A stretch of DNA of 28,059 nt. It comes from a virus. Positions 1-19,300 of the stretch are shown one piece after another (position 1 is the first letter of the stretch; each line of letters starts with the position of its first letter). A program made the position numbers and the translations under genes. The stretch lies in the IMG/VR virus record IMGVR_UViG_3300005823_000012, positions 1 through 28,059 of that record, one strand, 5' to 3'. The notes beneath the pieces were generated by a model, which ran no database searches, had not been told where the DNA came from, and was given only the letters and a program-made list of their open reading frames with translations.

Positions 1-581
1 GCACCACTTACGTAATATCTATCGTAATATGTATGTGTATGATCCGGTTCTATATCAGTAGTGGCACCACCATGAATATGCGATCCACTGGATGCGATAG
101 TAGCCGAATGCGTATGTGCTGGTCCCTCACTGGGCTGAAGAGCGTAGTTCTCCTGACCGGTGACACCACCAAGATTCTGTGATTGCGTCCTATTAACACG
201 GTTGACTCCGGAACCGGTGTTATTTTTACCTAAAACAAACCGACCCCTGGCGTCTGGAACATTGAAATTAGCACCAGCTCCACCATAGGTATAACCAATA
301 GCTGCAAATAAATCTGGGTATGCGGAAACCAACAACGATTGTCCTTCACACAGCAACCACCCAGTTGGTGCTACAGCACCCGCCCATGGTAATGGTCCAA
401 GACCAGGAGGTACTCGAAGAAGAAGGAGTGCAGCGATGGTATCATCAACGTATTTCTTTGACGTTGCTTCATCATCAAGGGATGGTGTAGCAGTGACACC
501 AATAACCTTTTTCCCATTCAAAGCAATGTCCTGTTGAACATCACTTAAATCCATTACTGAGTCGGTTACTTTTGTTGTCAT
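1..581 (-). CDS. Tail collar / short tail fibre protein (gp12-like), C-terminus cut by window edge
   Basis: This is a receptor-binding or fibre-tip protein, and the reading frame stays open for 193 codons to the window edge. Residues 35-48 contain the DDEATSKKYVDD motif common in phage fibre necks. Residues 65-118 are a clear tail-collar domain: PWAGAVAPTGWLLCEG, then an AIGYTYGG stretch and NVPDARGRFVLG. Beyond it are three HxH pairs (His156/158, 168/170, 181/183), like the metal-binding histidines of T4 gp12 and related collar proteins. The start ATG lies 2 bases after the stop of the upstream 544-aa gene and has a GAGAAG ribosome site, so the two are probably translationally coupled. The collar-domain assignment is from family knowledge. 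The role as short tail fibre is inferred from position at the end of the baseplate cluster. The missing C-terminus would normally carry the receptor-binding tip. Confidence 0.88.
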   Translation of the reverse strand, partial: MTTKVTDSVMDLSDVQQDIALNGKKVIGVTATPSLDDEATSKKYVDDTIAALLLLRVPPGLGPLPWAGAVAPTGWLLCEGQSLLVSAYPDLFAAIGYTYGGAGANFNVPDARGRFVLGKNNTGSGVNRVNRTQSQNLGGVTGQENYALQPSEGPAHTHSATIASSGSHIHGGATTDIEPDHTHTYYDRYYVSG

Positions 582-583
582 TA

Positions 584-2218
584 TTAAATCTTCTCAGATA
601 CGATGTTCCAGTTATTTGAACTGTCGAACACCAATGTAACGGCACCTCGGTCGGTAGAGATCGTATAGGTTGCTGCACCATCAAATGTTGCCGCAAACGG
701 ACCAGTAATGTCGATATTTCTGAGTGATCCTGCCAGACCGCCTTCATCCTTGATGATTATCTTACGTCCGGGGGTGGGTGCTGCTCCACCTGGACCACAT
801 GTAGCCAAATCAACAATAATATTAGGACCAGGAATATTGGTATCAAGAACACCAACATAACTCGGCGATTCTCCAACAACTATGGGGCTTCCATTCGCAC
901 CGATTCGCTGTTCGTAGTTGGCACCAGTCGATGCTGCGATGGTTATTTGATGACCTGGAGCGTCTTCGACGATGGTGATGTTGGAGCCAGCTACCAATCC
1001 CTTAAACTGGAGGTCAACTCCACTCTTACCATCCGTTATATCAGCTGATCCAAACGGAGCCAGTGAGTTCAGGGATGCGGTGTTTGCTTCACCGGCTGTC
1101 GGGGCAACAACAAGATTCTTCAAACTCTTGATATCAACAAGCTCACCACCTGTCATACCTACGAAGAATTCAACCTCATCCGGGACGAACGGTGGAGAAA
1201 AGTATAAAATCGGGTCTGGTGTTGCGGAAATCGGGTCAGTGGCGAGGACATTAATTTCGTAGTCGTTAGGACCAACAATATTAGCAACAGTGAAATCACC
1301 GTTGTATTCAGCCTCAAGTGCCCCACCAAGCTCTACCACAGTACCAACGGATGTAATACCATGCGGGTCAATCGTGTTCACATTTGCCAACACTGCACCG
1401 GCAAACGCCTTGATAATGGAATTCACAGTCAAATCTTGCTGATTGACGGAATAATCGATACCGATTGTCTTACCAATACCATCAACTGTTACAAGTATTG
1501 CTTCCGGTTGGGTTCCAGCCACACCAGTTTGGAACGTTGTTTGTCCAATACCGGCAGTGGTAATTGACTCAAATACCCTTGCGGTCTGGGATATCTGCAC
1601 TGTCTCGTATGCCCTAGTATAAACCTCAGCATTCAATACAGGAGGTACAACAAATACGATGGTGGTACCAACAACCGAGTAATCCCCGGTGACGGGTTCC
1701 ACTGTCAAGGAGTTCTGGCGAACACCATCAATGAATACTTCAACCAATTCTGAAGGGAGAGCGGACCCAACACCGAGCGGATAAGACACTGTGGTGTTGT
1801 CACCAACAGCTCTTCGCTCGATAACGTTAGTTGCATATCGTCCACCAGTAGCCTGCCACTGCAAACCATCCCAAACGAACAATACTTCAGTGTCTGTGGT
1901 CCAGTACAATGCTCCAGGAACTTCACTGCCAGTTACGGGCGGCTTGGGATCAGTCGGAGAGCCGTCGGAGAGACCGACTTCTGCCGGGACACCTTCCAAT
2001 GCTACCCATTGGGTAGTTGGGGAGTTAATGTACAGGAAAATAGTTGCATCGGCGATGCTAAAAACGATCCTACCGGGGGTGTTGTCCGGGTCTGCAACGG
2101 AAGGCAGCGTGTCCAGAACCTCCAAGGCAGTCGCCAAGGGGTCTCCGGTAGCGTTGTCCAGATTAATTCCGTAGTTTCCACTCGGAAGCAAACCATAAGG
2201 TACTAAATTTTTAGCCAT
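584..2218 (-). CDS. Tail fibre / virion adhesin-like structural protein, 544 aa
   Basis: This is a modular fibre-like virion protein. Residues 47-75 and 100-123 look like two related short beta units (FLYINSPTTQWVALEG and LYWTTDTEVLFVWDGLQWQ), typical of phage fibre stems. Residues 135-205 and 213-262 are two copies of a module with the pattern V-DGV-Q, DY-V and I-F-PP. The same pattern recurs in the giant protein encoded upstream. Residues 480-544 resemble the common C-terminal fibre domain (RKIIIKDEGG, DGAATYTI, GAVTLVFDSSNNW). It starts 11 bases after the preceding gene with an AAGGG ribosome site, and the collar gene follows after 2 bases. I cannot assign it to a single T4 gene. By place it could substitute for the gp9-gp11 peripheral baseplate or fibre-attachment set. 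The structural role is well supported, the exact role is not. Confidence 0.75.
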   Translation of the reverse strand: MAKNLVPYGLLPSGNYGINLDNATGDPLATALEVLDTLPSVADPDNTPGRIVFSIADATIFLYINSPTTQWVALEGVPAEVGLSDGSPTDPKPPVTGSEVPGALYWTTDTEVLFVWDGLQWQATGGRYATNVIERRAVGDNTTVSYPLGVGSALPSELVEVFIDGVRQNSLTVEPVTGDYSVVGTTIVFVVPPVLNAEVYTRAYETVQISQTARVFESITTAGIGQTTFQTGVAGTQPEAILVTVDGIGKTIGIDYSVNQQDLTVNSIIKAFAGAVLANVNTIDPHGITSVGTVVELGGALEAEYNGDFTVANIVGPNDYEINVLATDPISATPDPILYFSPPFVPDEVEFFVGMTGGELVDIKSLKNLVVAPTAGEANTASLNSLAPFGSADITDGKSGVDLQFKGLVAGSNITIVEDAPGHQITIAASTGANYEQRIGANGSPIVVGESPSYVGVLDTNIPGPNIIVDLATCGPGGAAPTPGRKIIIKDEGGLAGSLRNIDITGPFAATFDGAATYTISTDRGAVTLVFDSSNNWNIVSEKI

Positions 2219-2229
2219 CTTTTCAACCC

Positions 2230-2907
2230 TTAACTAACACGCTGGTAGCCGAATACCACAGCGTCGAATTTTAAATCTATAACACCCGCACCAGTGGCTG
2301 GGCTCGTAATCTCCAGTTTGATCTCTTCCGCATTCTCTGCGAAACGAGTCATACCCTGGATGGTGTAGAATGCGTGCTTTTGCAGAGTATAGTTCTGCAC
2401 CAACACGTTCTCCATGATGTCCTCGGAGGTATCGATGTACAGGTTCAACTGAGTGGGACCAATCGGAGGCGCACCACCATCGTTAACGGTCTTCGGAATC
2501 AACATAAGACCCGTGGGGTGGTGAGTTACATTAGCCAGACCAGGAGCCTGGAAGATAATCGTCGAACCGGCGACAGTAAAGTCGATATCGGTTGCGGCAG
2601 CCAACATCTGGAACTGGTGTGCGTAGTTACTATCAGCCGTTGACAACGGGATGAACTGGCTCGCATCTCGGTATTTCGGCAATGCCAAGTCGGTATCGTA
2701 CCAGATCATACCCTCAACTGGGTTGGCTGGCTCGGTCGGGTTGGCGAAATGTTCCATGAGGCGATACTGGGACTCGGATATAATGCCGCCATACAGCGAA
2801 ATTCCCTGTCCAATCATCTCGATTGGGAAATTGGCACCAGTGGTTGTCCCCACGTTTATAGTGGTTACCAGATTACCCCTAGAGTTCAATACGTTATATG
2901 CAGGCAT
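2230..2907 (-). CDS. Virion protein with fibre-type N-terminal domain, 225 aa
   Basis: Residues 2-88 follow a pattern I recognise from virion and fibre proteins of T4-like and marine myoviruses: YNVLNSRGNLVTTINVGTTTG, then a QGISLYGG stretch, then LMEHFANPTEPANPVEGMIWYDTD. The last block (FA-P-PANPVEG-IWYDT) usually precedes a fibre shaft. Residues 95-225 are a predicted beta-rich domain with no motif I can name. The ribosome site GAGGAAG is well placed before the ATG at 2907, and a TAAATA box lies in the 30-base gap upstream. The gene lies between a conserved baseplate-type protein and the 544-aa fibre protein, so it is probably a peripheral baseplate or fibre-attachment component. Family resemblance is by eye only, and the function is inferred. 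Confidence 0.7.
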   Translation of the reverse strand: MPAYNVLNSRGNLVTTINVGTTTGANFPIEMIGQGISLYGGIISESQYRLMEHFANPTEPANPVEGMIWYDTDLALPKYRDASQFIPLSTADSNYAHQFQMLAAATDIDFTVAGSTIIFQAPGLANVTHHPTGLMLIPKTVNDGGAPPIGPTQLNLYIDTSEDIMENVLVQNYTLQKHAFYTIQGMTRFAENAEEIKLEITSPATGAGVIDLKFDAVVFGYQRVS

Positions 2908-2925
2908 TTTACTTCCTCGATTCTA

Positions 2926-2934
2926 CTATTTAGT
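2926..2934 (-). promoter_or_regulatory. Candidate late promoter box (ACTAAATAG)
   Basis: A TAAATA core lies in the 30-base gap, 18 bases before the ATG of the 225-aa gene at 2907. It matches the core shared by the other minus-strand gaps. The flanks differ from T4 TATAAATA, so it may be weak. Confidence 0.4.
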
Positions 2935-2937
2935 CTG

Positions 2938-3546
2938 TTATTCGCAGATGCGTATTCTAAGTGTATACACAACCTCGATGATTCTGTTGGCTGATTTTTC
3001 AATCGGGGAAAACACGATATGGGTGATCAGCAGGTCGTCTTTGGATTTCAATCCGATCTCATCGAATATGAAAGCTGACGAATTTATGTTGGTATCGCCA
3101 ACATTATCAAACGCAGCCTGACCAAACGGCTCGTTTTTGTCGATCACGCATCGTATTTCAACGTCCGAGAACAGGGTTCCATTCACATGACGAACAGACA
3201 TCGAGTTGCCAGCCGGGGCTCCACTATTATCGTCCACAACCTCGAAATAAACCGGGGTGTTCAGATCGGCGGCACCAGTGGTGTTCGGGGTCGCATAAAT
3301 GATGTTACCCAGGGGATCAATGGTTGCGCCACCAGTACCGAACCACATCGTGTAGATGTAGCCATTATCACGGTGGGCTAGTCCCCTCGAAATGATCACG
3401 GATGCGTGTTCAGGGTGAATAGCGTTCCTGCGATTCAGGAGAATCTTACCCTTGGACTCATCACCAATATCACATTCCTCGTCATATTCGACGATTTTCA
3501 CGTGACCTTCGATTTTTACTTTTAATTCATCAGAAAGACTTGTCAT
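2938..3546 (-). CDS. Conserved virion / baseplate-associated protein, 202 aa
   Basis: The protein has a strongly patterned middle and end: MWFGTGGATIDPLGNIIYATPN near residue 67, SVRHVNGTLFSDVEIRCVIDKNEP near 117, and FIFDEIGLKSKDDLLITHIVFSPIEK near 160. I recall similar small structural proteins in large T4-like phages but know no defined function. I chose the ATG at 3546 rather than the longer TTG start at 3552. An AGGA ribosome site lies 7 bases before 3546, and the TTG has no such site. The gene follows the giant gp7-position gene after a 38-base gap containing a GATAAATAT late-promoter-like box, so it can be transcribed on its own. By location it may occupy the T4 gp8 position, but I see no gp8 similarity and the length is shorter than gp8 (about 334 aa). 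Confidence 0.7.
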   Translation of the reverse strand: MTSLSDELKVKIEGHVKIVEYDEECDIGDESKGKILLNRRNAIHPEHASVIISRGLAHRDNGYIYTMWFGTGGATIDPLGNIIYATPNTTGAADLNTPVYFEVVDDNSGAPAGNSMSVRHVNGTLFSDVEIRCVIDKNEPFGQAAFDNVGDTNINSSAFIFDEIGLKSKDDLLITHIVFSPIEKSANRIIEVVYTLRIRICE

Positions 3547-3570
3547 AACCAATTCCTAGTGCGATCTATT

Positions 3571-3579
3571 ATATTTATC
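3571..3579 (-). promoter_or_regulatory. Candidate late promoter box (GATAAATAT)
   Basis: The nine bases are identical to the box before the hub operon at 27499-27507. It sits 24 bases before the chosen ATG at 3546, in the gap after the giant gene. It has seven of eight matches to T4 late TATAAATA. It would give the fibre and peripheral baseplate genes their own late transcript. Confidence 0.55.
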
Positions 3580-3584
3580 ATTTC

Positions 3585-6500
3585 TCAACTACAATCCCCA
3601 GGATGCTGCATAATTTCATATGCTTCAGGCCACTGGACTGCTGCACCATTAGCGGTGCCGAATGCGTATGTTCCGTATGTTACGCCCCTACCAAAGGTCG
3701 GGAAACCGATTAATGGTGGGGTAATGTACGAATCGCCGACGCTAAACAGCTTATTAAATGAGGCTCCGTCGTATTCCCAGATTTCCTGTTTACGGGCTAC
3801 GAAGAACTGTTCACCGGGGAGTACCGGGGCTGTCATATTCCAAACTGTCCCATCCCATTGATAATACTCAACTAATGTGGTATCCACGACAGTAGTTCCG
3901 ACAATTCGACCGGTCTCTTCACCAAGCGGGGCGTCGTAACTCAGATGATCAACCATAATATCAGCCACAACGATTGGCATTCTGGTCAAAATAGACCGTG
4001 CCAGATCACCCTGACGGGGTTCTTTGTAATTAATCGTGATTGTGTCGTTGACCACCGGTGTGTCCAGGACGAAGTATTGGTTCACCACATCGTATGGGGT
4101 CGGGGAGGAAACCACCTCAAACGGACCCAGAGGACCGACAGGCCAGCCATTATATACAAACCGGACGATATCGCCTGGGAGCAGGTACGGGTTCGGGGAT
4201 ACATCAATGATATCGCCAGGAACCGGGACGATATCCTGAATGGTTATCTGGGATACCGTGATGGAACGGATCATCCGGAATGAAATCACATCACCAGGAG
4301 CCGGGTTGGTGGTCCAGTTGATAGTGTTTCCACCAGATAATGTCAAATCCGGTATTCCAAGCGCCGTATACAAATCCTGCACAACACCATTAAGGAAAAT
4401 CATGATGTCATCAGGGTCCAACGCATCCGTAACACCGGGGATTACATCCGAAGCTCCACCAGAAGCTGAGAAGGTACTCTCAACCACGTTGTAAATGTCA
4501 ACAGGGCTATCGATTACTCGGACTTCGATATTACCAACGGAGGTTGCCGGTGGCGCTACTACAAAATCAACAGATGCCAACGCAGTGCCCGGATTTGAAA
4601 TAGTGTAGTCAACACCAGGATTCTGATATACTCCATCAACAAACACAAACACAGTGTCATCGAATGAGTCATCCTGTCCGGTAGTAATAGTTCCAATCAG
4701 GAACGAGGTAAGGATCGAGTTGCCTGTGAAGTTGGTGATCGAGAACAGCGGGGAATTGTCGCTGAAAGTGTTACCAAATCCAAAAAGAATGATCTCATCA
4801 TTAGTATTCGGGGCTACCGTGAATGTCACATCACTAACCGGACCAATGTTATATGCGCCGGAGAAGTCGGATACGTATGCGGCACCGGAACCAGTGTCCT
4901 GGAACACAAATACATTCTCACGAGTGAGGCTGTCCAATGGGAGATTTATTTCAAACCCGAAGGTTGCACCGGATGCCAGTACACTACTAGCACTGGAGAT
5001 GAAGTTTTCTTCAACAGTCCTTGGTGCCGGTTGGATCGGTGTGAAATCGATTATCTGGTTACCATTGGGACCAGACAGGAAGTAATCAACACCACCTGTC
5101 AACAGGTTGCCATTCAACCTAACGTCGTTAGCACCTGTTACGATGGTGACATTAAACAGGGTAGTCGAGCCATCAGCGATAAACTGCTGACCGGCTGGTG
5201 ATCCAAATTCAAGGATATTATTGAACGGTTCGACGACGGTGTACTCAGTTCCCTCAGTTACAGGGAGGAATGTACCAGTACCACCAGCATCCACCAGAAC
5301 CTCTACACGGCGATATGCTTCACTTGAGCCTATCACATATGGTGCATTTATCGATGTGAAGTCTTCACTGGTTGGGAATATTTCCAATCCGGGTGCTATT
5401 TCCTGCTGAGCACCGATGCTCATGAGGAATACCCGGTTACCTATATCGTTCGGGGCTTGATCAAAACCAGTAGTATCCCATGGTGTCGAGTCCCAGGATG
5501 CCATGATCTCATTTACTGTATTGGTGACACAGATATTAACACTATCGATAACTTCAGTCACGATGCGCTCTTCCGGACGACCACCAAGGGGGTCATTCAG
5601 ATCGGTACACCCGTACATCCCGATTATCCCCTCAAGCTGTACAACTATAACCGCATTATTGGATGGGGCAACAACGAATTCAATGGCGGCATCAGCCGTA
5701 CCAGGATCAATAACGGTGTAATCAACACCAGCTACCTGAAGTACGTCGGATACAAATACCACAGTTGTACTTTCGGATGCTCCGTTACCGACCACAAATG
5801 TAGTCTGTGATCCATCACCTATGAAACTGGTGTATCCCTCAGTCCTCGGGTCAAAGCCAATTGCCCCGGTCGTGAGCGTGCGTGCCACGTGATGCTTGTA
5901 GCTGCTCGGGATAGCCTCGAATTGAGTATCGTCGAATTCAGGTCCAAGTGTTATTGCAGTATTGCGTTCTACAAAGCCCTGGGTCTGTTGTGCCTCAACC
6001 TCACTACCGTTCGGGAGAATGGAGGCAAGGTCAACCTGAATCGAGGTTGGGAATGTAGTTATGGTCACACCAACTGAATCATTCGACAATTCATTACCAA
6101 ACTGATCACGAATGACAACACGCTGACTGTAAAGCGGTGGGTTGTCAGCCGGGTTGTTAAATGTATATGATGTATTGATACCATCGGCTACTTCAATGCC
6201 CACGGTGTACCATTCATCGGTGCCCAGTTCTGCCATATCCCACAAAGGCATGTCCCAACCGATAGCCGGTGGTGACGGATCGTCCCATGCGTAAGAGTCC
6301 CAACCACCATCGTCTATAAGGTTACAGGACAGCCTGTCAAATCTAAGGCCAATCTTGATATTCGGGAGTTCCTGGATATTAACCGGAACCTCTTCAAGGG
6401 TGTCTACTGTCATAGTTGACGTTGCGCTACGAAGTTTGGTGCGGAACGGCTTAACATCAGTAATGTTGTTTATCACACCCTGGGTCTCATCCGGGCGAAC

Positions 6501-9500
6501 GAACGGGGATTGAATCAGTACATCAAACACCTGGGTGGAGATATATGAAGTCTTGACAAACCAGTCGGCGTTTAAGTGCTGGCGCATCATTTCATGCAAC
6601 AAGGAGAATACCAGGGCATTCTGCTCGCCACGATCCAAAGCATCATACGTGCGCTGGTATACGACTCGGAATCTAGTGGTATCGTTTGTGAGGTTGGTGT
6701 TTAATGCAACAGTGTGGTTGTCCAGACCAACTTCCAGGAACGCACCATCACTAAACACATATGTTGCACCAACTTCGACGGTGTTACCGGCAGCTTCCTC
6801 GAACGGGTCAAGGTTTCCAGACTGTTCTACCTTAATAAGGTCGCCGTTTGCATAGAAATCATTAGCACCACGGAAATCACGAACTGCAATCGTTACGGTG
6901 GTATCGAATAATGGCTGATTTTCGTATTCTTTAAGAATGAAATCCTCTCGCTTCCAGAACCCAGTAGGATTGGTGGTTGCGTTGTACTCGTCTGCGAGGT
7001 CGAATATTGCTACCAACGCATCAAGCGGACCCAGATTCTTTTGCTTCAGTATACCGTTTACGGTTTCCAGATACGTGGATACTGCGGAGTCAACATCTGC
7101 ATAAATTGTCTGTACCGGGAATTCGCATGAACCATACTTCTCAGTATCTGACAACTGAGGCGCAGGAACGGTAGTTCCAAACTGGTCTACACCAGACATG
7201 GAATCGATGATCTTACTATTAATAACCGGTGGTACTTCCTTAAACTGGTCTCCCTCGGACACGAGTACCCATGCGGCATGGGTGTCAAGGACACGCTCGT
7301 CGATGATGACTTCCACAGCATGGTTATTAAGAACCTTCACGCCACCAGTGAACATTGCCATATAGTTGGCATCCATTGGTGCAAACCATGCAGAACCGAC
7401 TATGGATGGACTAGCGAGGCGCTGAGCAACTTCTACCGTGTCAACATCTGAAGATGGGTTGGTACCCGTATTGCCCTTAACCCAGAAATAGTAAACCGGG
7501 GTGAGTATATTAAGACTGTTGTACTTATCAATCTTCACATAAGACGGATTATCAGCGTTTAGCGGCACACCAGTCGGGTGATCAGGGGCTGTCAGGGTGT
7601 TAGTGTAATCTACCCAACTCTCAGGCGGCACAGGGGACTCTACCCACTCATACAGGTCGATCTCGCCCACCTGAACTTTAACGTCGCCAGTGGCTGGAGA
7701 CGAAGGCAGGCTAGTTATTTCGAATGTGAACTTGGTGAGGTCCGTAGTAAATGTTCCTGGGGTTATACCAGTCAATGTCAGCAGATCGTGCGATGCTGGG
7801 GTGCCGGATACCAGATCGAATGTCACACCAATGTAATCATTTGTGTTCTCGAACTTCAGGAACCCACCATCGTTTACAGCTTCTACCTCAACTACCGGTA
7901 CCGCCGTGAAGAATGCATTAATTTCGGCAACAATGGCATCCAGCGTTCCACCCTCCGGGGATGTGAACGAGATTGGGACACCAGTGGACGGAGTGGTTAT
8001 GTCGAAGTTGCTTCCGGACGGGTATGCACCGTAGGTCTGGGCGGAGATTCCAGCACGTGCCAGGAGATCATCTACAGTTCCGGCTGTAAGCACGAATCTC
8101 TTACCTTCGTTACCTATGGTGTTACGAAGAATGAGCTTGTTATCTTCAGCAACCGCTTCTACTTCTACGATGAGAACAGATGTCAAGAATGTGTTTATCT
8201 CAGCCACGATAGTGTCGAGATTTCCACCCTCGGCACTACTGAATGTCTGCAAACCACTTGCATCAGTTTCGATGGAGAAGTCGGACAATGCTGGGATGAT
8301 TTCAAAATACCCAGGGATAGCTGAGATGCCGATGACTGCAAGAAGATCATCCGGGACACCAGCAATAAGCTGGAACCTAGCACCACCATTACCAGCGGTG
8401 TTCGTGAACACAACAACATCATCAACGTTCAGGGCGGTAACAACCGTTATTCCTTCAGATGTCAGGTATGTATTAATGTCAGCAACAAGGCTATCAACCC
8501 CGGCACTAGCTGTGGTTACATACGGTCCGGTTGTGGTCGGTACTGCATCTGTAGCGATGTTGAAACTATATCCAGACGGGATGATTTCCAGAGCAACACC
8601 AGTATCACCACTAAACACACTATCATATGGTGCCGGGAATGCGGTAGACGGACCTATTGCTATACCAGTCATGGCAAGCAGGTCGTCCTGGGTGCCACTG
8701 ATCAGGATAAATGATGTTCCCTCGTACCCGAGTCCGTTCTGGAACCCAAGAGAATCCTCAGAGAAGAATGCGTGAGCCTCTACTATGTCAGTAGCACCCA
8801 GGCTAGAATTTATTTCTGCGATGACGGTCTCAAGGTTGGCACTGCGCTGGTTAACGTAGTTGAGGCGCTTGGACGCAAACAAGGTGTAGTCATTACCGGT
8901 GGTGGTAAACGACAGCCTGTTGGCATTATTGACTGCCACCACGGATGAGATTCCGGAGTTAGCCAATGCTGCGTTAATGTCAGAGATGACCCCAGTCAAC
9001 GTGGTGTTCGAGACAACCACTGGGACCACAATATCAACTTCGATGTCGAAAGACTCGGTAGCAAGGTAGGGGGCAACATCTACACTACCAGTCACGTCGG
9101 TATATGTGCCTGGGTTTATGAAAACTTTAGGCAGGAGATCGGTTGCACCAGCCGTAAGATCAAATGTTACGTCTGCTCCAGATATAACGTTATTGAGGCG
9201 TAGTTTGTTTCCAACGGCAGTAGCTGATATGGCTGTGATATTCGCAGCCAGCAAATCAGCGTTTACTTCGGATACGAGCTGCCCGATGGTTGTACCATTT
9301 GTGGGGGTAACCGTAGCTGACTGATGAACAGTTATCTCGAAAGTGTCACCGTTATCAAATACTGGATTAACAACGGTACCGATTGTGGTCAAACCCGTGC
9401 GTACTTTACTGGTCTGATCGGTGATGTCGATACCAGCCTTGGTCATTAAATCTTTAAACAACACCAATGAGAAATCGGCACCGGTTCCTGGACCAGAGAA

Positions 9501-12500
9501 GTCCTCACCTGGGATTATCTCATAGGTACCGGGGGCAACACCGGCTATTTCGAGGATACCGCCATATACACCAGCTGGTATTCCAGCCACGGTGAGAAGA
9601 TCGTTAGATGATCCGGAAACCAGGAAGTATTTTGCTCCCTCATAACCAACGGTGTTCCTGAACCCAAGTCTACCACCGGAGTCGAATGCTTCCACTTCAA
9701 CAATCGGATTCTTACCAAGTGGTGGAGTTGCAAATCTAGTGTTGATCTCAATTACGATTGCTGCAACGTTACCACCGGCAGTACTGGAGAAGCCATATGA
9801 GTCAGAATCTGTTGTGAATGAGAAGTTATCACCAACTGAGAAAGTAGGACCAGCGACGGAACCAACCACTTCACGAGGGAGGTTCGTCAGATCGTATGCT
9901 TCACCACTACCACAAGTGACCTGTCCGGGGTTCCGGAATGCCATCCTGTTAACTTGTGCCAGGGTGTCATAGTCATTAAATGCTTCTATTTCGTCTTCAA
10001 TACCATTGGTGATGAAGAACTGGTTGATTTCTTGAACCATTCCTATCACGGTGCCGCCAGCAGCGGACGTGAACTGGAATGTTCCATCACGTGTTGTTAC
10101 TTCGAAGTTGTCACCAGCCTGGAATTCGGGGTTAGCCTCGATTCCGGACACTGAGTTATTGTTTACAAACGTTATCGTTCCGGTAATCTCATTGCTTCCA
10201 GAAAGCTGACTGCCGGAAATCGTTATTGACGACGGGATGAATACTGTACCAGCAGCTTCCTCTTCCACATACGGGACTGTGCCAGTTACTTCTACCGGAC
10301 CTAGTGAAATAACAACGTCGGAAACGTTCCATTCCGGTTCGTTTGCATCACGAATGCTAATAATATCACCGGATGACAAACCACTGATCACAGGCTCCCT
10401 GGAGAAGATATCCAGAGTCTGTACTGTTGCTACATCACCATCACGGGTTATGTCTGCACGGTAGTACTCAAGATTGCCCCACACGCTACCAGCAGCCAGA
10501 TAATCCGGACCATTAGGGAATGTAACTGGGTCGGAGCCATCGATTGGTCTACGGTAGTCAACATAACTACGACGAGAGATATCCCACCACAGATCACCAA
10601 CGTGGTTTGCACCCCATGCCAATCCATTGGAGCGTGTAGTATCAGGACCAACATTATATCGAGCTGGGTCCAGTGCTTCGGTGTAATCAACCTCAGCCAC
10701 GGCAATCGGGTCGAATTTCCCAAGCTCGGGATCAAACTGTGGTGCTCTGGTAAGTGTGAATCCAGTCGTCTCATCAAACAACTGTGCGAAATATTCAGTA
10801 TCTTCAACAATAGGAAGACCATTTCCGTCAACAGGGAATGTCACATTGGACAATCCGCTCTGTCCGGTTGGTGGTGGTGTGATCCACCTTGAGTTATCGG
10901 TCGTGTAAGTCCCTGGAGTTATACCAGCATCAGCAAGCAGGTCATTAACAGTACCAGCTTCAAGGGTGTACTCAGTTCCGATGAAGTCACCGGTGTTTTG
11001 GATGCCGAGAGTTTCGTTGTTGTCAGTTATAACAACAAACGCTTGGACACCGACCATACTGATAGCAGCAAGCTTTTGATTTATCTCAGCAGCAATATCA
11101 GTTGCGGTTCCACCAGACGAACCGTTGAAATAAAGGGTATTACTTGCGTTGCTTATTGTAAAATCATTGGATGCCACGAATGCCGGGTTTGACACGGTGC
11201 CAACAGCGGAGTTGTACCTATCAAAGTCCTGCACCTCAAGAACATTATCAAACAAGTTGACCGGGGTTCCGAAACCTATTATCTGGACATCATCACGGAA
11301 TTCATCTTCGGTCACGTTGAATTGTGCAATAACACGATTCTCATCACCGAATTTTTGAACCTTCCAAGCCCAATCTTCATAGACGAACACATTACCAGCA
11401 CCAAGTATGGTACCCCTGGTGTACGCCGTTACCGCACGCACTGTGCCTTTCGCATTAAGCATACCACGGAAGTAGTCAAACCTTGAGCGATCTGATGCGC
11501 CGATGATATCCATATAAGAATCATTAGGACTCCAACCGTATAAGTTCCTAGCGGAGTCACGCAGTGTTGGGTCATCGGGTGTATCTATTCTATCGTAGAA
11601 CCTAGTAAAGTCAAAGGCTTGTTTCTCGAAGTTGGGGAGAAGTGTGCCATTATCGATGACGTAACCGTCTGCTTCCGGTCGTCCGACCCAATCATTTGTC
11701 CTATAACTATCAACACGGAGCGTTGTGTGTGCCAGGGAAAGTACAGGATCGTAAATTATGTCATTAAATCTCGTGATATTGGAGAATATCACAACGTGCT
11801 GCATCTCAATGAGATTAATACGGATGCCATATAGATCAGGGTCGCCAGTGGCTACTACTTCAGTATGTGATTCACTACGAGACACCAGGGTCTGATCGGA
11901 ATCAATCGGGAGACCATTATAGTTTACAATACCATATGAACCATTCTGTAGAGACTCGATGTTGTTGGAAATACCGAAGTCTGCTTTGAATATGGCTTTT
12001 CTAGCCATCGGGGTGTACCGGAATATACCCGTATCCAAAACATCAACTTTGGATTTATTGGGATTCCATGCACTCTCTGTCTCGATGACCCATGCAGCAA
12101 ACTTCTGGGCACCGTTCATCCAATCCAATGTTGCGTTCGTTGTTTCGTCCGTGTCGCTGAATATCCAACCATCCTCGTCCAACGCTCTACCATAACCGAG
12201 CATGAAGTTGATGACTTCAGATGAGGTTTCAAAGAACCTACCGTATTCGACTGCTATTCTTTCACCGGTTCCCCTTGGGAAGTAAGAGAACGGGATGCCC
12301 CGGACCTTAAAGGAACGCATTTGAGCACTAGGGCTCTGTGTTGTTGCCAGGACAGTCGCCGTAACGATCATCCCATCTTCCATCCGAACGCTACTCTCAA
12401 TCTGGAAAGTGCGCTTATCAAGTATGGTTATATGCTGTGGTTTAATCCTTCTACCATCAACCAAGATTGACACCTTAGTGGTATCATTGTTAGCCAGATT

Positions 12501-15500
12501 AAATGGGAGAACCAGAGAGTCTGTTATGTAGGTGTGCTTATCACCAATTTCCACCAGGGTCAAAGCTGCTGGGCTGCTCCCCTGATTGACACCGGTTTCA
12601 AAACTCTCTCTGCGCTCAAACTGACCAGCGGCGGTCGGCACGGCAGGCTTATCGATTTCGAATATCGGGTTACTAGAATCTGTTCCATAGATACGGTAGC
12701 CAGACGGCTGCTCACGAACAACGGTAATACCGGAAGCAAACTTGCGATCAAACGGCTGTGACGTATGTAAAATAGTGTGGACATCCTCAAACGGAATATC
12801 ATTACTGGACAATGTTGTTACAGTTGTCCTTTCGTCTCTGATGAATCCAGAGGTCTGCCATATAAGAGCCGGTTCGGTGTTATCGACAACCACGGCAAAA
12901 TCAGCCGTCGGGCTTCCACCACCAGCTAAAATAACATCGGAAATCCATGCATTGGTACCGATTGATTCTATCAGATTACCATCGTCATCGACTTCAAGAT
13001 GGGTTGGGATTTCGTCATTGTTCGGGCGAGTTAGCGTGTCCTGCTGTACAAAGTGTGGAGCAGTAGCTATCTGGTTCGTACCAGAATCACCTATAGATAA
13101 TGTCTGACCAGCCCAGGTAAGATCGACCCACCTACCGTTCTTCATCAAATACGATGACAGTGAAACGGAGAATGGGTATATTGGGGAGTCATAAAACGAC
13201 TGCTCGACCGGACCATCGTCGCCATACTTCCAGGAATCGTCGATCCTGTCCCAATCAAGACTGGACTCTTCAACAATACCAGCTGTGATTGGGTCTATAA
13301 GCTCACCAGCAGCGTCAACTGGTATAGGACCAGCCATCACAAACTCTTCTCGTACTGCGCCAGTTATCGGGTTGACAATACCAGCCTGGAAATCAACCCA
13401 CATCGGGTGTGCGCTTCCGTATCTGGGGGTTCCGTCTGCCGCCACGCTGGTCGGGACGTACTCAGTTCTCCACCACGTAGGTTCGATGGTGTATCCCACA
13501 ACTTCCCACGCATGAATCTGGGGCTCGATGGTGTTGTACAACCGACGATATATACCACGGTAGTTGCCTTCCACGCCAGCAGAACTGTAGTTCCATGTGA
13601 ACTTGTCGGATTCTTCAAATGTGTCGTTAGCGGTAGGGTCTTCCTCTTCTAATATAACCAGACGGCTGTATTCGTTCTGTATTACTTTGCGGAATTCGTT
13701 ATCACTGTAATCGAAATCAAATGAATTATTGAACAGTTGAATAACGCTCGTGGTTTTACCATTGTAAATGTAATACTCACTATCCCCATTATTGAGGAAA
13801 GTGTCATCGACAATTGCCTGGGTGAGCAACCACGTTGATCCATTATAATCTGCAAACACTGCCTGCCCGGTGGAGAACACACGCTGGTTCAGGCTCGGTG
13901 CCACGATGGTGGTATAATCAACCACAACCTCGTCAACCGGGGGTTGTGTCGTTACCGGGGTTTTATTACCGTAGTAATCACCCAGGAAGAAATTAGATGG
14001 AAGATATCTAGCTGAGAAGGAGGTGTCCTCCGTCCTGTACGACTCTGGAACTTTAGCGAAGAATCGATCTTGTAGATCAAGCCACATCAAGTCCCTGTCG
14101 TCACCGAACGAATTCTGGATGTACCCATCATGCCCACGGAGTAAAATATTACCCTGGGTGTCAACATACTTCGACGGTAGGTAAGTCGGTGATGCACCAA
14201 CCTTTGGTGGTGATGGCGGGATAAAAATGGGTTTAGGGTTAGTCGGGTCAACAACGATTGCGGTACCGCTATCAACTCGGGTCTCCAGGTATGTACCCAT
14301 GTCCGAGTGTGCATACGGGAAATCACCAGTCCTACCGGCGAACAGCTCCGTTAACACAGTGTCAACAGCCTCGGTGGGTGTTACAAGCAGTGTTCCAGCG
14401 GGGTCTGCGAATTTATTATCTTCACCCCATAGCTGATTCATCCTGTTGGTAAATCTAAACAGGGTCTTCTGATAAATTCTGGATGACTCACGCATCGCAT
14501 TGGTGAAATCGAGGCTCGACGACTGTAATGTTGCCATAGTGCGGAGCAACGACTGTTCGGGATCGATAAGAGAAGCTCCAAGGGTGGGGCTCCTATCAGA
14601 CCAACGATAACCATTCGGACCATTCGGGCTGCCGGATGCGTCATCCTGTGAACCAATGACACTAATCATATGATCCAATATCTTAGAGCGAGAGAATTCA
14701 GTCAGAATGACGTGATCTGGGTTCGAGCTAAGACTGTGCGGAACGTCATACAATCCCTCCGCATCCTGGGTCTGTTCCAAATCTTTATCCGATTTGAACC
14801 AGATGGAATGCATGAGACCAGTATTTTCGTCTTTGAAATATTTGTAACCCAGAGCACTCGACGGGTCACTCTCTAAAGTAAGGTTGAACAAGAACTCACC
14901 GGATGCGTTGAACTCCAGCGGGAACCCAAGAACGGTATCATCACGCCCGGTACCAACCTCATATGCATAAATCGTAGTGGATTCGCCGGTGTCCGTGATA
15001 TCATTCAGGGTTGCATTGTAAGAATACTTTTTGTATACCGGCTGATCATTCCTTGAGTCTTTACTATCACCAGCAACGGACTCTATACCATTCCAGAATT
15101 CAACGATTGGTCGTACAGCCTGATCTTCAGACAGTAACGCAGCCTTATCAGCAGGTGATAAGTCTTCATAATGTCTCCACCAGTTTTCACGGGACCATGC
15201 GTCTTGGGCATCACTAAGACTGATACTATCGAAGAAGTTTCTGATATCGTACACGTGTTCTTGATCGGTACCAACACCAGACGGACCGGGGGCATTGGTA
15301 TATACGAGGTCCACAAACATACCATTGGTGTAGATTTTAAATTTTCGCTGAGGCTTTACCCTAGCATCTTCCCAAATCATACCCTCACGAGGGACATCAG
15401 GAGCCACCAGTGACACGACTACGGGCTGGGCTATCCAACGTTTAGCCTGATCACTATACATCCACACCAGGGGTCTGTTGAACTCAGGACCGGTCCTGGT

Positions 15501-16208
15501 AACATACACAACGTCGCCGGACACAAATGGTGCAGTGTTGGTAGGAATATTATCTACTGGTGTAAATTCTACAACAATCCAGGAGGTACCATTGGAGCGA
15601 TATATCAACCTTGTAATATTGGAAGCATCTTCCACATATTCACCGACTGCACCAACAGCTGGCAACCCATCAGCAATAGGAACCTCGACACGATTGAATG
15701 TCGTTCCGTCAAATTCATAAATCGTGGTTTTAGATGCTTCTGGTTCCTTGGTGATATACACACCATGAATGTCGGCAGCTTCACCGGGAACAATCCAGAA
15801 ATACCTACTGAAATTGATATGCTTGTCATAATCAATCGGCGGGGTCCAAGCATAGAACCCGACATCAAACACTCGATTCGGGTCATCAGACAACCCACCA
15901 TTTGCGGTGATCTGCCCAGTGAGGTCGGTGTAGAACGCTGCACTAAGTCTGCGCTGGAATTCCGGCTCAATGTAGGTGGCACCAATGGAAAGCTGATATT
16001 TCTGACGTTCGGGTGTGTTTTCGTGGATGAGCGGGGTCCGCTCAAGGTCCAAAGGCGTGAGCAACTCTCCCGATCCGATATACCCCTGAAGGAAATCAGC
16101 ATTCTCGGGCTCATACATCATATCATCCGCAATGTAAGTCTCCTGGTCGTTATGAGGAGTCTTCAGATAATCAGGGTATGAGGTAAATGCCCTACGTTGT
16201 TTTGCCAT
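3585..16208 (-). CDS. Giant virion structural protein in the gp7 (baseplate wedge) position, 4207 aa
   Basis: One unbroken frame of 12.6 kb covers about 45 percent of the window. It follows gp6 as gene 7 does in T4, so a wedge role is likely, but T4 gp7 is only about 1030 aa. The N-terminus (residues 1-400) has HINFSRYFWIVPGE (130-143) and repeated short 'IYEFDGTTFNRV' units. It also has a WSRENWWRHYEDL stretch followed by RPIVEFWNGIE, a pattern I associate with large myovirus baseplate or virion proteins. Residues about 1675-1777 and 2020-2825 hold nine modules resembling flagellin hook IN motifs. Residues about 3455-3982 hold five beta modules of the 'FVDGVYQ-GVDYTI-VDFVVAPP' type. The start is ATG with AAGG nine bases upstream, in a leader rich in inverted repeats. 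It may be a wedge core fused to adhesive or spacer modules. The structural role is sure. The gp7 equivalence is inferred from synteny. Confidence 0.85.
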   Translation of the reverse strand: MAKQRRAFTSYPDYLKTPHNDQETYIADDMMYEPENADFLQGYIGSGELLTPLDLERTPLIHENTPERQKYQLSIGATYIEPEFQRRLSAAFYTDLTGQITANGGLSDDPNRVFDVGFYAWTPPIDYDKHINFSRYFWIVPGEAADIHGVYITKEPEASKTTIYEFDGTTFNRVEVPIADGLPAVGAVGEYVEDASNITRLIYRSNGTSWIVVEFTPVDNIPTNTAPFVSGDVVYVTRTGPEFNRPLVWMYSDQAKRWIAQPVVVSLVAPDVPREGMIWEDARVKPQRKFKIYTNGMFVDLVYTNAPGPSGVGTDQEHVYDIRNFFDSISLSDAQDAWSRENWWRHYEDLSPADKAALLSEDQAVRPIVEFWNGIESVAGDSKDSRNDQPVYKKYSYNATLNDITDTGESTTIYAYEVGTGRDDTVLGFPLEFNASGEFLFNLTLESDPSSALGYKYFKDENTGLMHSIWFKSDKDLEQTQDAEGLYDVPHSLSSNPDHVILTEFSRSKILDHMISVIGSQDDASGSPNGPNGYRWSDRSPTLGASLIDPEQSLLRTMATLQSSSLDFTNAMRESSRIYQKTLFRFTNRMNQLWGEDNKFADPAGTLLVTPTEAVDTVLTELFAGRTGDFPYAHSDMGTYLETRVDSGTAIVVDPTNPKPIFIPPSPPKVGASPTYLPSKYVDTQGNILLRGHDGYIQNSFGDDRDLMWLDLQDRFFAKVPESYRTEDTSFSARYLPSNFFLGDYYGNKTPVTTQPPVDEVVVDYTTIVAPSLNQRVFSTGQAVFADYNGSTWLLTQAIVDDTFLNNGDSEYYIYNGKTTSVIQLFNNSFDFDYSDNEFRKVIQNEYSRLVILEEEDPTANDTFEESDKFTWNYSSAGVEGNYRGIYRRLYNTIEPQIHAWEVVGYTIEPTWWRTEYVPTSVAADGTPRYGSAHPMWVDFQAGIVNPITGAVREEFVMAGPIPVDAAGELIDPITAGIVEESSLDWDRIDDSWKYGDDGPVEQSFYDSPIYPFSVSLSSYLMKNGRWVDLTWAGQTLSIGDSGTNQIATAPHFVQQDTLTRPNNDEIPTHLEVDDDGNLIESIGTNAWISDVILAGGGSPTADFAVVVDNTEPALIWQTSGFIRDERTTVTTLSSNDIPFEDVHTILHTSQPFDRKFASGITVVREQPSGYRIYGTDSSNPIFEIDKPAVPTAAGQFERRESFETGVNQGSSPAALTLVEIGDKHTYITDSLVLPFNLANNDTTKVSILVDGRRIKPQHITILDKRTFQIESSVRMEDGMIVTATVLATTQSPSAQMRSFKVRGIPFSYFPRGTGERIAVEYGRFFETSSEVINFMLGYGRALDEDGWIFSDTDETTNATLDWMNGAQKFAAWVIETESAWNPNKSKVDVLDTGIFRYTPMARKAIFKADFGISNNIESLQNGSYGIVNYNGLPIDSDQTLVSRSESHTEVVATGDPDLYGIRINLIEMQHVVIFSNITRFNDIIYDPVLSLAHTTLRVDSYRTNDWVGRPEADGYVIDNGTLLPNFEKQAFDFTRFYDRIDTPDDPTLRDSARNLYGWSPNDSYMDIIGASDRSRFDYFRGMLNAKGTVRAVTAYTRGTILGAGNVFVYEDWAWKVQKFGDENRVIAQFNVTEDEFRDDVQIIGFGTPVNLFDNVLEVQDFDRYNSAVGTVSNPAFVASNDFTISNASNTLYFNGSSGGTATDIAAEINQKLAAISMVGVQAFVVITDNNETLGIQNTGDFIGTEYTLEAGTVNDLLADAGITPGTYTTDNSRWITPPPTGQSGLSNVTFPVDGNGLPIVEDTEYFAQLFDETTGFTLTRAPQFDPELGKFDPIAVAEVDYTEALDPARYNVGPDTTRSNGLAWGANHVGDLWWDISRRSYVDYRRPIDGSDPVTFPNGPDYLAAGSVWGNLEYYRADITRDGDVATVQTLDIFSREPVISGLSSGDIISIRDANEPEWNVSDVVISLGPVEVTGTVPYVEEEAAGTVFIPSSITISGSQLSGSNEITGTITFVNNNSVSGIEANPEFQAGDNFEVTTRDGTFQFTSAAGGTVIGMVQEINQFFITNGIEDEIEAFNDYDTLAQVNRMAFRNPGQVTCGSGEAYDLTNLPREVVGSVAGPTFSVGDNFSFTTDSDSYGFSSTAGGNVAAIVIEINTRFATPPLGKNPIVEVEAFDSGGRLGFRNTVGYEGAKYFLVSGSSNDLLTVAGIPAGVYGGILEIAGVAPGTYEIIPGEDFSGPGTGADFSLVLFKDLMTKAGIDITDQTSKVRTGLTTIGTVVNPVFDNGDTFEITVHQSATVTPTNGTTIGQLVSEVNADLLAANITAISATAVGNKLRLNNVISGADVTFDLTAGATDLLPKVFINPGTYTDVTGSVDVAPYLATESFDIEVDIVVPVVVSNTTLTGVISDINAALANSGISSVVAVNNANRLSFTTTGNDYTLFASKRLNYVNQRSANLETVIAEINSSLGATDIVEAHAFFSEDSLGFQNGLGYEGTSFILISGTQDDLLAMTGIAIGPSTAFPAPYDSVFSGDTGVALEIIPSGYSFNIATDAVPTTTGPYVTTASAGVDSLVADINTYLTSEGITVVTALNVDDVVVFTNTAGNGGARFQLIAGVPDDLLAVIGISAIPGYFEIIPALSDFSIETDASGLQTFSSAEGGNLDTIVAEINTFLTSVLIVEVEAVAEDNKLILRNTIGNEGKRFVLTAGTVDDLLARAGISAQTYGAYPSGSNFDITTPSTGVPISFTSPEGGTLDAIVAEINAFFTAVPVVEVEAVNDGGFLKFENTNDYIGVTFDLVSGTPASHDLLTLTGITPGTFTTDLTKFTFEITSLPSSPATGDVKVQVGEIDLYEWVESPVPPESWVDYTNTLTAPDHPTGVPLNADNPSYVKIDKYNSLNILTPVYYFWVKGNTGTNPSSDVDTVEVAQRLASPSIVGSAWFAPMDANYMAMFTGGVKVLNNHAVEVIIDERVLDTHAAWVLVSEGDQFKEVPPVINSKIIDSMSGVDQFGTTVPAPQLSDTEKYGSCEFPVQTIYADVDSAVSTYLETVNGILKQKNLGPLDALVAIFDLADEYNATTNPTGFWKREDFILKEYENQPLFDTTVTIAVRDFRGANDFYANGDLIKVEQSGNLDPFEEAAGNTVEVGATYVFSDGAFLEVGLDNHTVALNTNLTNDTTRFRVVYQRTYDALDRGEQNALVFSLLHEMMRQHLNADWFVKTSYISTQVFDVLIQSPFVRPDETQGVINNITDVKPFRTKLRSATSTMTVDTLEEVPVNIQELPNIKIGLRFDRLSCNLIDDGGWDSYAWDDPSPPAIGWDMPLWDMAELGTDEWYTVGIEVADGINTSYTFNNPADNPPLYSQRVVIRDQFGNELSNDSVGVTITTFPTSIQVDLASILPNGSEVEAQQTQGFVERNTAITLGPEFDDTQFEAIPSSYKHHVARTLTTGAIGFDPRTEGYTSFIGDGSQTTFVVGNGASESTTVVFVSDVLQVAGVDYTVIDPGTADAAIEFVVAPSNNAVIVVQLEGIIGMYGCTDLNDPLGGRPEERIVTEVIDSVNICVTNTVNEIMASWDSTPWDTTGFDQAPNDIGNRVFLMSIGAQQEIAPGLEIFPTSEDFTSINAPYVIGSSEAYRRVEVLVDAGGTGTFLPVTEGTEYTVVEPFNNILEFGSPAGQQFIADGSTTLFNVTIVTGANDVRLNGNLLTGGVDYFLSGPNGNQIIDFTPIQPAPRTVEENFISSASSVLASGATFGFEINLPLDSLTRENVFVFQDTGSGAAYVSDFSGAYNIGPVSDVTFTVAPNTNDEIILFGFGNTFSDNSPLFSITNFTGNSILTSFLIGTITTGQDDSFDDTVFVFVDGVYQNPGVDYTISNPGTALASVDFVVAPPATSVGNIEVRVIDSPVDIYNVVESTFSASGGASDVIPGVTDALDPDDIMIFLNGVVQDLYTALGIPDLTLSGGNTINWTTNPAPGDVISFRMIRSITVSQITIQDIVPVPGDIIDVSPNPYLLPGDIVRFVYNGWPVGPLGPFEVVSSPTPYDVVNQYFVLDTPVVNDTITINYKEPRQGDLARSILTRMPIVVADIMVDHLSYDAPLGEETGRIVGTTVVDTTLVEYYQWDGTVWNMTAPVLPGEQFFVARKQEIWEYDGASFNKLFSVGDSYITPPLIGFPTFGRGVTYGTYAFGTANGAAVQWPEAYEIMQHPGDCS
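7735..11185 (-). repeat. Nine flagellin-IN-like protein modules inside the giant structural gene
   Basis: The encoded modules share the pattern 'F-I-T-(10)-F-S-GG-(5)-IV-EIN-(8)-V-AF-(6)-L-F-N-G-G-F-L-GT-DDLLA-GI-GTY'. Approximate positions are 11185-10880, 10150-9895, 9855-9560, 9370-9090, 9060-8870, 8870-8645, 8585-8305, 8290-8030 and 8010-7735. Each is about 65-105 residues. They are diverged at DNA level, so this is an old protein-level expansion. The GG plus EIN core and the following 'L-L-N-G' strand resemble the IN motif of flagellin, FlgL and FliD. That comparison is from memory and not from a profile search. Confidence 0.7.
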
Positions 16209-16324
16209 CCATTTGAACCTTATTAAATTATATAGGATTATTTACTAATTTCCGAGGGGCACGATTGGAATAATCCATAAGAACTATATAAGTTCAAATG
16301 GATTATTTTTCAAGAACAGTAGCA
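16209..16324 (-). promoter_or_regulatory. Structured leader between the gp6-like gene and the giant gene
   Basis: This is a 116-base AT-rich gap with overlapping inverted repeats. A local hairpin pairs 16269-16278 (AATAATCCAT) with 16298-16307 (ATGGATTATT). Inside it GAAC (16281-16284) pairs with GTTC (16292-16295) around a 7-base loop. A competing long-range pairing joins 16209-16218 (CCATTTGAAC) to 16292-16301 (GTTCAAATGG), 16230-16235 to 16284-16289, and 16235-16242 to 16269-16276. The long form would bury the spacer between the ribosome site and the start codon of the giant gene. The local form would leave it free. In the transcribed (minus) direction no U-run follows the stem, so it is not a standard terminator. 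Confidence 0.6.
16238..16246 (-). promoter_or_regulatory. Candidate late promoter box (AGTAAATAA) for the giant gene
   Basis: The box has a TAAATA core on the minus strand, 29 bases before the ATG at 16208. T4 late promoters have TATAAATA read by gp55. It lies between the arms of the leader repeats, so transcripts starting here would lack the upstream arms. It is weaker than the boxes at 27499 and 3571. Confidence 0.4.
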
Positions 16325-19300
16325 TTACCCGATTGCGCAGGTTTTCAGCTCTTCATCTGTTAAACTCGTGACAATCTGTACATTTTCAGCACTTGCCGCC
16401 GAAGCGAACAACTGATCCGGCTCAGACCTGACCTGGAACATTGCACCAAAGGACAAATCATTGGACCTTGGTACGATAACCACCGACTGGATATCCGGCG
16501 TCAATTCCTTATGGATATATGCTGCCAGTTCGGTGAAGTAGAATGTCTCACCGAAGTCCCAGTTCGCTGCTTCGAAGAATGTGTTGATCGCTGCCAAAAC
16601 TCTCAGGCGGATATTGTTTTCACTAACCAGTGATCCTGGGGTCTGAACAATCTTGAAAGTAGCCTGGAGTTCTGGTATCGCCTGCTCACCAAACAACAGT
16701 AAGTATCTGGTCGAGTGGAAGATAATCGAATCACTCATGGTTTTGAAATCTTCAAAATCCTGGAACTGAGTGCGCAGTGCTTCCGAGGACGGGGCTTCTG
16801 GCATCGTGCTCAGTGGTTCGTTGTTGAACAACCAGGAACGGATTTGCTCATCATATAGCGCCGTGAGGATATAAACATCCATGACATTCGACACCGACGG
16901 GTCAATTCGAATGGAATCCGGGGAGTAATGAACCCACTTAAACGGTAGATCATCCCTACCAATCCGATACTGATACGCATCCTGATTAACAGCGACTTCC
17001 CATTCACCCTCAACGTGGGTGGTCTGGTTAGCACCATTTGCCACCAACCATTGACCGGTGGTCTGGTCATAGTGAATATCACCACTAACATACGGAATAG
17101 TGTGACACGCCACGAGTGGGGTGGCGGAATAATAGATCGTCTTAGTCTGGATGGGATCACCCGGTACTGGATAACCACTAACGGTATCAACACCTTGCGT
17201 TCCATACGTCCCTTTCGGCGAAGTGAATCGGTTTATCGGCTGGGGTACTGTGAATCCTTGCGAATCAATACTCCTCCAAAGAACCAAATCGGTTACTCCG
17301 TCCTCTACAACGAAATCGCTAAACAGGAACGGATTGTCGTAGAATCCCGAATTATCTAAGTCAGCCGGGGTGACAAAAATACCGTCAGTATTGACGTAGC
17401 CGTCTGGATATCGGAGAACATCGGAGACAAACAGCTCATTTCCGGAGTCCGAGATAAAACTGGGATCGTCTGAGATGCACTGTCTACGTAAGCTGTCCCT
17501 GGTCTCATTGCAATTAAGAATGGTAACGGCGTCATGTTCAACCACACCAGTCTCGGGATTAAGAACAGCAGAATTATTTACGAAGAAGAAATCGACTTCA
17601 CGAGCTGATTCCCAGAAGAATCCAAACCCACGGTCTGTGATGCTCCAGAAATCTTCACCGGTTCCACCAGGAACGAATTCAGCCATAATCATCCACGACG
17701 CATCAAGTCCGGAGCCGGACGTATTACCTTGGTTTGCAAGGCTAAATGGTGATGTCTTATCGAGATTTTCAAAGGTGATCATATTCCAAGTGGATGTCAC
17801 ATAGTCCCAGGAGATACCAAAATCAAGACGGAACAATAATTGCTGCTCGATGTTGGCAAGCTCGGCTCCAGTGAATACTGTACGCATAGCCGGGAGCACG
17901 GAGTCAATCGTGTCCAAGTCCTGCACTATATCACGAAGGATTATCGATCCGGCACCAGTGCCGTCATCAACGATCCGATCCACGTATGCGTTTACGCTCA
18001 ACCCGGTTGTTATAACGGCGTCAACATCAACGAATTGAAGATTAGTTGTTGTATTTCCGGTACCTACCGGTAAAATATTACTACTATTGTCCTTGATATT
18101 ACCACGGGACTGGTCGGCAACTATCGCATTTTCTGCCCATTCATATGGTTGAAGAACAAAGTCACCATTGCCATTAAGGCGGGTATCGGTGTTAGTGTTA
18201 TCAAACTTTATCGGCGGATAATCATTAACATACAGAACATTCTTGTCCGGTTTTGAAATAAGAGGTGCTATGTAATTGTTCAATAAGGAATCAATAGGCA
18301 CGATGGTTATGTCTGCGGACACCTGGGTGTTCGTCAGAGTATTATCTTTATAGAACCTACCATCGTCTGCCATGACCTTAACGTTCTGGTACAATCCAGT
18401 CGGGTCTGTCAGTTTGGAGAATCTGGAGTGACCGGCATACGTCCGATTTACAACCTTGACTTTCTCGATGGCACTATCTTTCAGGAAGAAACTATTATAA
18501 TCCTGACCGGTAACCATGCGATTCTGGGTGTAGAATACCCGATTAGCACGGGTTCTGATATCGTCATTCGATTCTGTAGCGGCAGCATTCAGTAACTGAT
18601 CCCTCAGAGAGAATGTCAATGTCAAATAAAATATAGTCGAGTCAACAACATAAGGCACGGTTACTTGTTGATTCTGTATGGCTTCTGGCTTGATAGCCTG
18701 CGGCTGTGGGTTTGCGGTGCGGTACCAGAACCTGAATAGTCCCTGGGGGATCGCACCGAATTTACCATCACCAAAACGAACCCGAACCGTGTCGCCGAGT
18801 AGGGTGTCTATTTCATAAATGGTATTCGAACTGTCAACGTCCGGATCGAATGAAACGCCTTCACCGAACACATCATCAACCTGAGTCCAATTCTGGATAA
18901 CGTCACCATTTTCATCGACTTCTTGAACAAAGAAATCGTCATTATTAATATTGGGGACATCAAGATCAAACACACGGATAATGATCGGGTCTACAAAATC
19001 CACATCACGGAAGGTGAGGGTTCCCTGTACTACCTGGAAGAAGAATCCAGTACCGTCGGAGGAAAGACCTTTACCGTCCTGGTTATACAGGATGTTGTAA
19101 GCGTTTGTTGGGTCAGGAATATTTTCCTCGACCACACCAGTATCCTTGTCCAATAACAAGTTGATGGTATCAAACGGGAGGTTCACACCATTAACCTGGG
19201 TGGTGAACGGGTATGAGCCGCCCTCGGGGGCAGCCGAATTGAAAACGTACTGGTCCTTCTGGATGCCATCAGTCTGTGTGGAAACCAGCGGTCTACCGAA

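Follow-up and report, generated by a model that had tools for sequence, protein, structure and literature searches.

The window, an IMG/VR virus record of 28,059 bp, carries an open reading frame of 12.6 kb (positions 3585 to 16208, minus strand) encoding a giant virion structural protein of 4207 aa that belongs to the PHROG_10938 family. The frame is transcribed from 16208 to 3585, begins with an ATG that has a Shine-Dalgarno-like AAGG just 5' of it, and contains a single, terminal stop codon. A stop-free frame of this size is far too long to have arisen by chance. A second IMG/VR contig (L016, 21,890 bp), whose DNA is 99.995% identical to the window over 18,989 bp, encodes an identical 4207-aa protein, and the frame is thus not an assembly error. 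An earlier note on this DNA, which described the frame as uninterrupted and placed it behind a gp6-like gene in the position of T4 gene 7, is borne out on these points. In transcription order the giant gene is preceded by genes for a gp53-like protein (PF11246, 1.5e-5), a structural protein, a gp5-like protein with a lysozyme domain, a gp25-like baseplate wedge protein (123 aa; 20181 to 19810, minus strand; PF04965, 1.5e-10) and, immediately upstream, a gp6-like baseplate wedge protein (1161 aa; 19810 to 16325, minus strand). The lysozyme domain of the gp5-like protein (819 aa; 21168-23627, minus strand) is C-terminal (aa 666-804), whereas that of T4 gp5 lies in the middle of the protein. Inside this baseplate cluster, between gp5 and gp25, a gp55-like sigma-factor gene (20305-21171, plus strand) is found on the opposite strand; the sigma factor of RaK2-type relatives is annotated as gp55, a late-transcription factor. 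Two tandem copies of a 26-bp repeat (27531-27582) lie upstream of the run of structural genes.

On the other side of the giant gene lies a conserved neighbour of 204 aa (phrog_11259; 2938 to 3552, minus strand), which is found within 400 nt of the giant gene in 18 of the 32 testable loci among the matches listed. It is followed by P0010 (225 aa; 2230 to 2907, minus strand), a protein of 544 aa (584-2218, minus strand) and a Tail-Collar-domain protein (3 to 581, minus strand; PF07484, 2.9e-21) whose frame is open at the window edge. By eye, the 544-aa protein contains beta-type units like those at the C-terminus of the giant. In contig L102 the Tail-Collar ORF, of 263 aa, is followed by an ORF of 390 aa (3209-5185 for the two). 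We interpret the 390-aa product as a fibre that ends in an S74-type, chaperone-like region, and both ORFs are probably fibre genes. The Tail-Collar protein has a weak Gp10_C match (0.046) and the N-terminus of P0010 matches a PA5oct protein annotated as T4-like gp10; the earlier statement that no gp10 homologue is recognisable nearby is therefore not supported.

The giant protein aligns with the PHROG_10938 profile ("virion structural protein", 3324 aa) in seven stretches with E=1.7e-192. In PHROGs the family is categorized under "head and packaging", not tail. Translated searches identified relatives in 57 to 59 cultured phage records, all of them from jumbo phages except two Klebsiella records of the RaK2 group, which are short and probably partial. 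The order gp25-gp6-giant is kept in RaK2 (giant of 3326 aa), GAP32 (3341 aa), XaC1 (3332 aa), Hallingskeid (3330 aa), PA5oct (3857 aa), Atu_ph07 (4449 aa), Phosso (4555 aa) and XacN1 (3313 aa). Family members including Atu_ph07 AUZ94962.1, PA5oct EST35_0128, RaK2 gp465/ORF070, GAP32_230 and CBB_236 share with the window protein the conserved scaffold blocks and their order, the neighbours gp25 and gp6 and, in many cases, the 204-aa protein; the cultured giants (3313-4555 aa) differ from it in being only about 21-39% identical in the conserved blocks and in lacking the array of flagellin-IN-like modules described below. Two of these relatives have been found in virions, in keeping with the virion part suggested for the window protein. 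The record for PA5oct EST35_0128 is annotated ESI-MS/MS, and hence indicates detection in virions by mass spectrometry, and 21 peptides of CBB_236, encoded beside the gp6 gene CBB_237, were recovered from virions by the same method (PMC5259590). In phage AP-J-162 a structural protein of 4455 aa likewise adjoins a wedge protein (PMC11242549).

Relatives are also abundant in metagenomic data, being encoded by at least 577 IMG/VR stretches. Among the matches listed there are 31 distinct complete frames of 2241-5538 aa (median 4546), 20 of which are longer than 4207 aa, and a gp6-like gene lies directly upstream of the giant gene in 73 of 76 testable loci. The giant gene is apart from gp6 in Salicola phage SCTP-2 and in three large IMG/VR contigs; in those contigs gp6 is found elsewhere in the same record. 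The closest relatives, from IMG/VR contigs L018 and L017, are 44-51% identical to the window protein over its first ~1650 residues. The L017 giant is cut by the end of its contig; that of L018, the closest complete relative, has 2737 aa, is 45% identical in the core and lacks both the array and ~560 C-terminal residues. In size and position the window protein is thus an ordinary member of PHROG_10938. The uniqueness implied in the earlier note is not upheld, since cultured jumbo phages and cyanophages commonly have giants in the gp7 slot. What the window contributes is a private, nested array of modules in one member of the family, and not a new kind of protein.

Blocks of the giant that are collinear with seven cultured relatives comprise aa 1-180, ~480-770, 830-1650, 1808-1893 and 2850-3310, the remainder being variable. 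The N-terminal block (aa 1-180; 15669 to 16208, this and all following features on the minus strand) contains a motif common to all cultured relatives, PPIDYDKxINFxxYFW. The best-conserved scaffold core (aa 480-1650; 11259 to 14771) includes a helix-KGT-helix motif, FDYFRGMLNAKGTVRAVTAY (aa 1573-1598; 11415 to 11492). The AlphaFold2 model of aa 480-1665 has a mean pLDDT of 76.2 and a pTM of 0.67, and in a Foldseek search of BFVD it retrieved mainly members of its own family, the best being from Atu_ph07 (9.5e-53). The core is followed by a first flagellin-IN-like module (aa 1674-1770; 10899 to 11189), which stands outside the array and ahead of the conserved domain into which the insertion is set. 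This scaffold domain (aa 1771-1893; 10530 to 10898), with the motif VGDLWWDISRRSYVDY...WGNL, bears in one loop a first-level insertion domain (aa ~1894-2025; 10134 to 10529) that is partly common to contigs L018, L022 and L075 and, by alignment, absent from PA5oct and GAP32, and then the array proper, eight modules of ~75-98 aa each (aa 2026-2822; 7743 to 10133). The scaffold resumes at aa 2848-3310 (6279 to 7667) with the motif IDLYEWVESPVPPESW, conserved in cultured relatives. The variable C-terminal region (aa ~3450-4207; 3585 to 5861) contains, to judge from the sequence, repeated beta-type units of the form xGVDYTxxxPG...xAPxx. A three-part layout had been proposed, and its conserved N-terminal virion region, tandem array and C-terminal beta modules are broadly borne out; it needs correcting in that conserved scaffold of the N-terminal type does not stop at the array but returns behind it.

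The relation of the array to the scaffold is apparent from the alignment around it. In PA5oct and GAP32 the segment WGKL-(FPGS or LPNS)-INVYEW or INVLEW is uninterrupted. In L018, L022 and L075 a short domain lies between WG(R/S/Q)(M/L) and the (I/V)xVxEW strand, and the window has that short insertion too, with the array nested inside it. This graded series at a single site (none, short, short plus array) identifies the array as a nested loop insertion that rejoins one conserved domain at either end. All nine related modules, the one at aa 1674-1770 and the eight at 2026-2822, score 9e-19 or better against a module HMM, which was itself built from these nine. No such module was detected in the other giants compared or in the phage collection, and a single-sequence scan of IMG/VR returned the same phage population only. 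By these searches the array is private to this phage population.

These observations bear on the model of the earlier note, in which a single chain would run through wedge, periphery and adhesive projection and replace gp8 to gp11. The length and modular composition of the giant are in keeping with such a chain. The array is unlikely, however, to be a linear spacer from an N-terminal wedge part to a C-terminal adhesin, because it is inserted in a loop and conserved scaffold follows it. Collar and S74-type fibre proteins have ORFs of their own downstream, no slice of the protein matches gp8 or gp10, and in RaK2 it is gp098 and gp526-gp534, not the giant, to which adsorption is attributed (PMC10253068). 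Given the RaK2 attribution and the downstream genes, an adhesive role for the giant is not supported either. No significant match to a receptor-binding, lectin or adhesin protein was obtained in Pfam, in PDB sequences or, for the models of aa 480-1665 and of two modules, among PDB folds. Taken together, the evidence makes the single-chain arrangement very unlikely.

Some indication of the nature of the modules comes from structure prediction. An AlphaFold2 model of two modules, with the sibling modules as alignment, has a pLDDT of 89.0 and a beta-beta-alpha-beta-beta layout. It matched nothing in Foldseek at E<=0.001. Weaker matches recur in flagellins, including H. pylori FlaA (E=0.035), C. 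jejuni flagellin and FliD, and V. cholerae FlaA superimposes with an rmsd of 3.2 over 99 columns (probability 0.89). The Pfam family Flagellin_IN (PF07196) is found in two of the nine modules with a best E of 0.05, below the cut-off. Flagellin_IN and the outer domains of flagellins share the beta-beta-alpha-beta-beta layout with the modules, which in contrast to flagellins have no flagellin core helices. As all of these resemblances are below significance, a flagellin-IN-like fold is suggested and no more. Two other candidates were set aside: the DUF348 match to the whole giant (E=2.2e-5) was not used because it rests on 17-residue fragments, single modules scoring only 0.004, and the match of the module profile to a tail sheath (E=0.14) is insignificant. 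Two points would suit a giant that formed part of the tail whiskers or hairs seen on CBB and related jumbo phages, instead of the baseplate: the flagellin-like fold suggested for the modules and the lack of assigned hair genes (PMC5259590). Yet the core shows linkage to wedge genes, the modules occur in this phage population only, and RaK2, which has the core, is described without mention of such hairs in the part of its description consulted. A whisker protein is accordingly a highly improbable reading of this gene.

Like T4 gp7 (1032 aa), the giant is encoded behind gp6, and its helix-KGT-helix motif looks similar to the helix-KG-helix motif of gp7; T4 gp7 is a quarter of its size, and no significant profile or fold match connects the two. 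Comparison by hhalign of the N-terminal 1700 residues with T4-type gp7 gave no significant match, nor did that of all 400-residue slices with gp7, gp8, gp9, gp10, gp11 and gp12 (at most 3.3% for gp10), while the controls were readily recognized (T4-like with cyanophage gp7, 97.7%; jumbo gp6 with T4/cyanophage gp6, 98.6%). One gp8-like signal at aa 3001-3400 (8.4%, P=0.004) was lost on extending the alignment from 4 sequences to 45-79 and was for this reason rejected as chance. PDB sequence searches with the whole giant, the core and the KGT region found no match, and the model of aa 480-1665 matched no PDB structure, and so no solved wedge fold, at E<=0.001 (best E=0.012, TM-score 0.06). The homology to gp7, gp8 or gp10 that had been envisaged thus finds no support in these comparisons. 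The helix-KGT-helix motif may possibly be the counterpart of FYSTKGxxxSYKFLFKLLY in T4 and cyanophage gp7. The gp7 domain profile picks it out when given aa 1500-1665 (P 0.011-0.016); over aa 1-1700 its best local match has P 0.09, and the hhalign probability of the motif against gp7 is at most 4%, compared with the 97.7% of the gp7 control. The similarity is a lead, statistically unproven.

The giant probably helps to build the tail baseplate. Its place there might be other than that of gp7: as an outer ring, a collar or a hub to which fibres attach, it would have taken over the functions of gp8, gp10 and gp11, and an unrecognised small protein would bind gp6. Lack of homology to gp7, separation from gp6 in SCTP-2 and the three contigs, and the fibre-type genes that come after the giant would all suit such a hub. 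Against it stand the strong gp25-gp6-giant linkage, the absence of any match to the gp8 and gp10 profiles as well, and the cyanophages, in which giants in the same slot bear a true gp7 motif. We consider a hub of this kind rather unlikely.

The cyanophage proteins, with lengths taken from annotated coordinates, lie directly behind gp6 in ACG-2014f (4225 aa), P-TIM68 (4307 aa), S-SSM6a (3007 aa), S-CAM22 (6273 aa) and S-RIM2 (6378 aa), and those of ACG-2014f and P-TIM68 are annotated "baseplate wedge initiator". They resemble the window giant in this position, in their thousands of residues and in their modular insertions. They differ from it in that each contains a true T4 gp7 FYxxKG domain, and homology to the window protein is undetectable. 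In these giants (L096 6469-22001, S-CAM22; L103-L106) the domain lies within the first ~700 residues, with a long insertion preceding it in S-CAM22 and S-RIM2. A search of IMG/VR with the gp7 of Yut3 returned identical copies only.

The cyanophage giants provide a precedent for reading the protein of the window, and of RaK2-like jumbo myophages generally, as one that, along with gp6 and gp25, makes up the body of each baseplate wedge and acts like T4 gp7. The gp7-domain profile finds T4 (5.2e-49) and S-CAM22 (7.8e-31) but has no match across nine genomes of cultured jumbo phages and a further three large contigs; a gp7 role, which the gene position fits, is plausible by elimination because no other gp7-type domain was found in these twelve. 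Points against it are the missing gp7 sequence or fold match, the unlinked loci of SCTP-2 and the three contigs, and the "head and packaging" category in PHROGs. On balance we favour the gp7-like wedge role with moderate confidence. The conserved scaffold (aa 1-180, 480-1650, 1771-1893 and 2848-3310) would pack on the gp6 dimer and bridge to the baseplate rim, as T4 gp7 does, and variable domains inserted in its loops or appended C-terminally would decorate the outside. The nested loop insertion of this phage, ~900 residues with eight flagellin-IN-like modules among them, exits from the scaffold and rejoins it at one place, and for this reason it probably stands out from the wedge as a decoration.

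A broader evolutionary scenario can be offered only tentatively. The gp7 wedge subunit might have become, in RaK2-like jumbo phages, a frame of 2,200-6,400 residues that takes up private loop cassettes, and in cyanophages have done so independently or by extreme divergence; the window array would then be a recent decoration of the baseplate surface. We regard this as conceivable but doubtful. If it were true, the number and type of array modules may tune host contact or shielding. RaK2-like jumbo phages are often isolated, though the annotations and literature examined name no gp7 equivalent for them and state no function for the giant gene; the giant gene of the baseplate cluster is a candidate, and a map of scaffold and inserted domains is now available for the whole family. 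With a named candidate the question of gp7 becomes testable in the cultured phages RaK2, PA5oct and GAP32. In SCTP-2 (L015) the neighbour that precedes the 3807-aa family member (17914-29337) is a second giant ORF, of 3096 aa (8546-17836).
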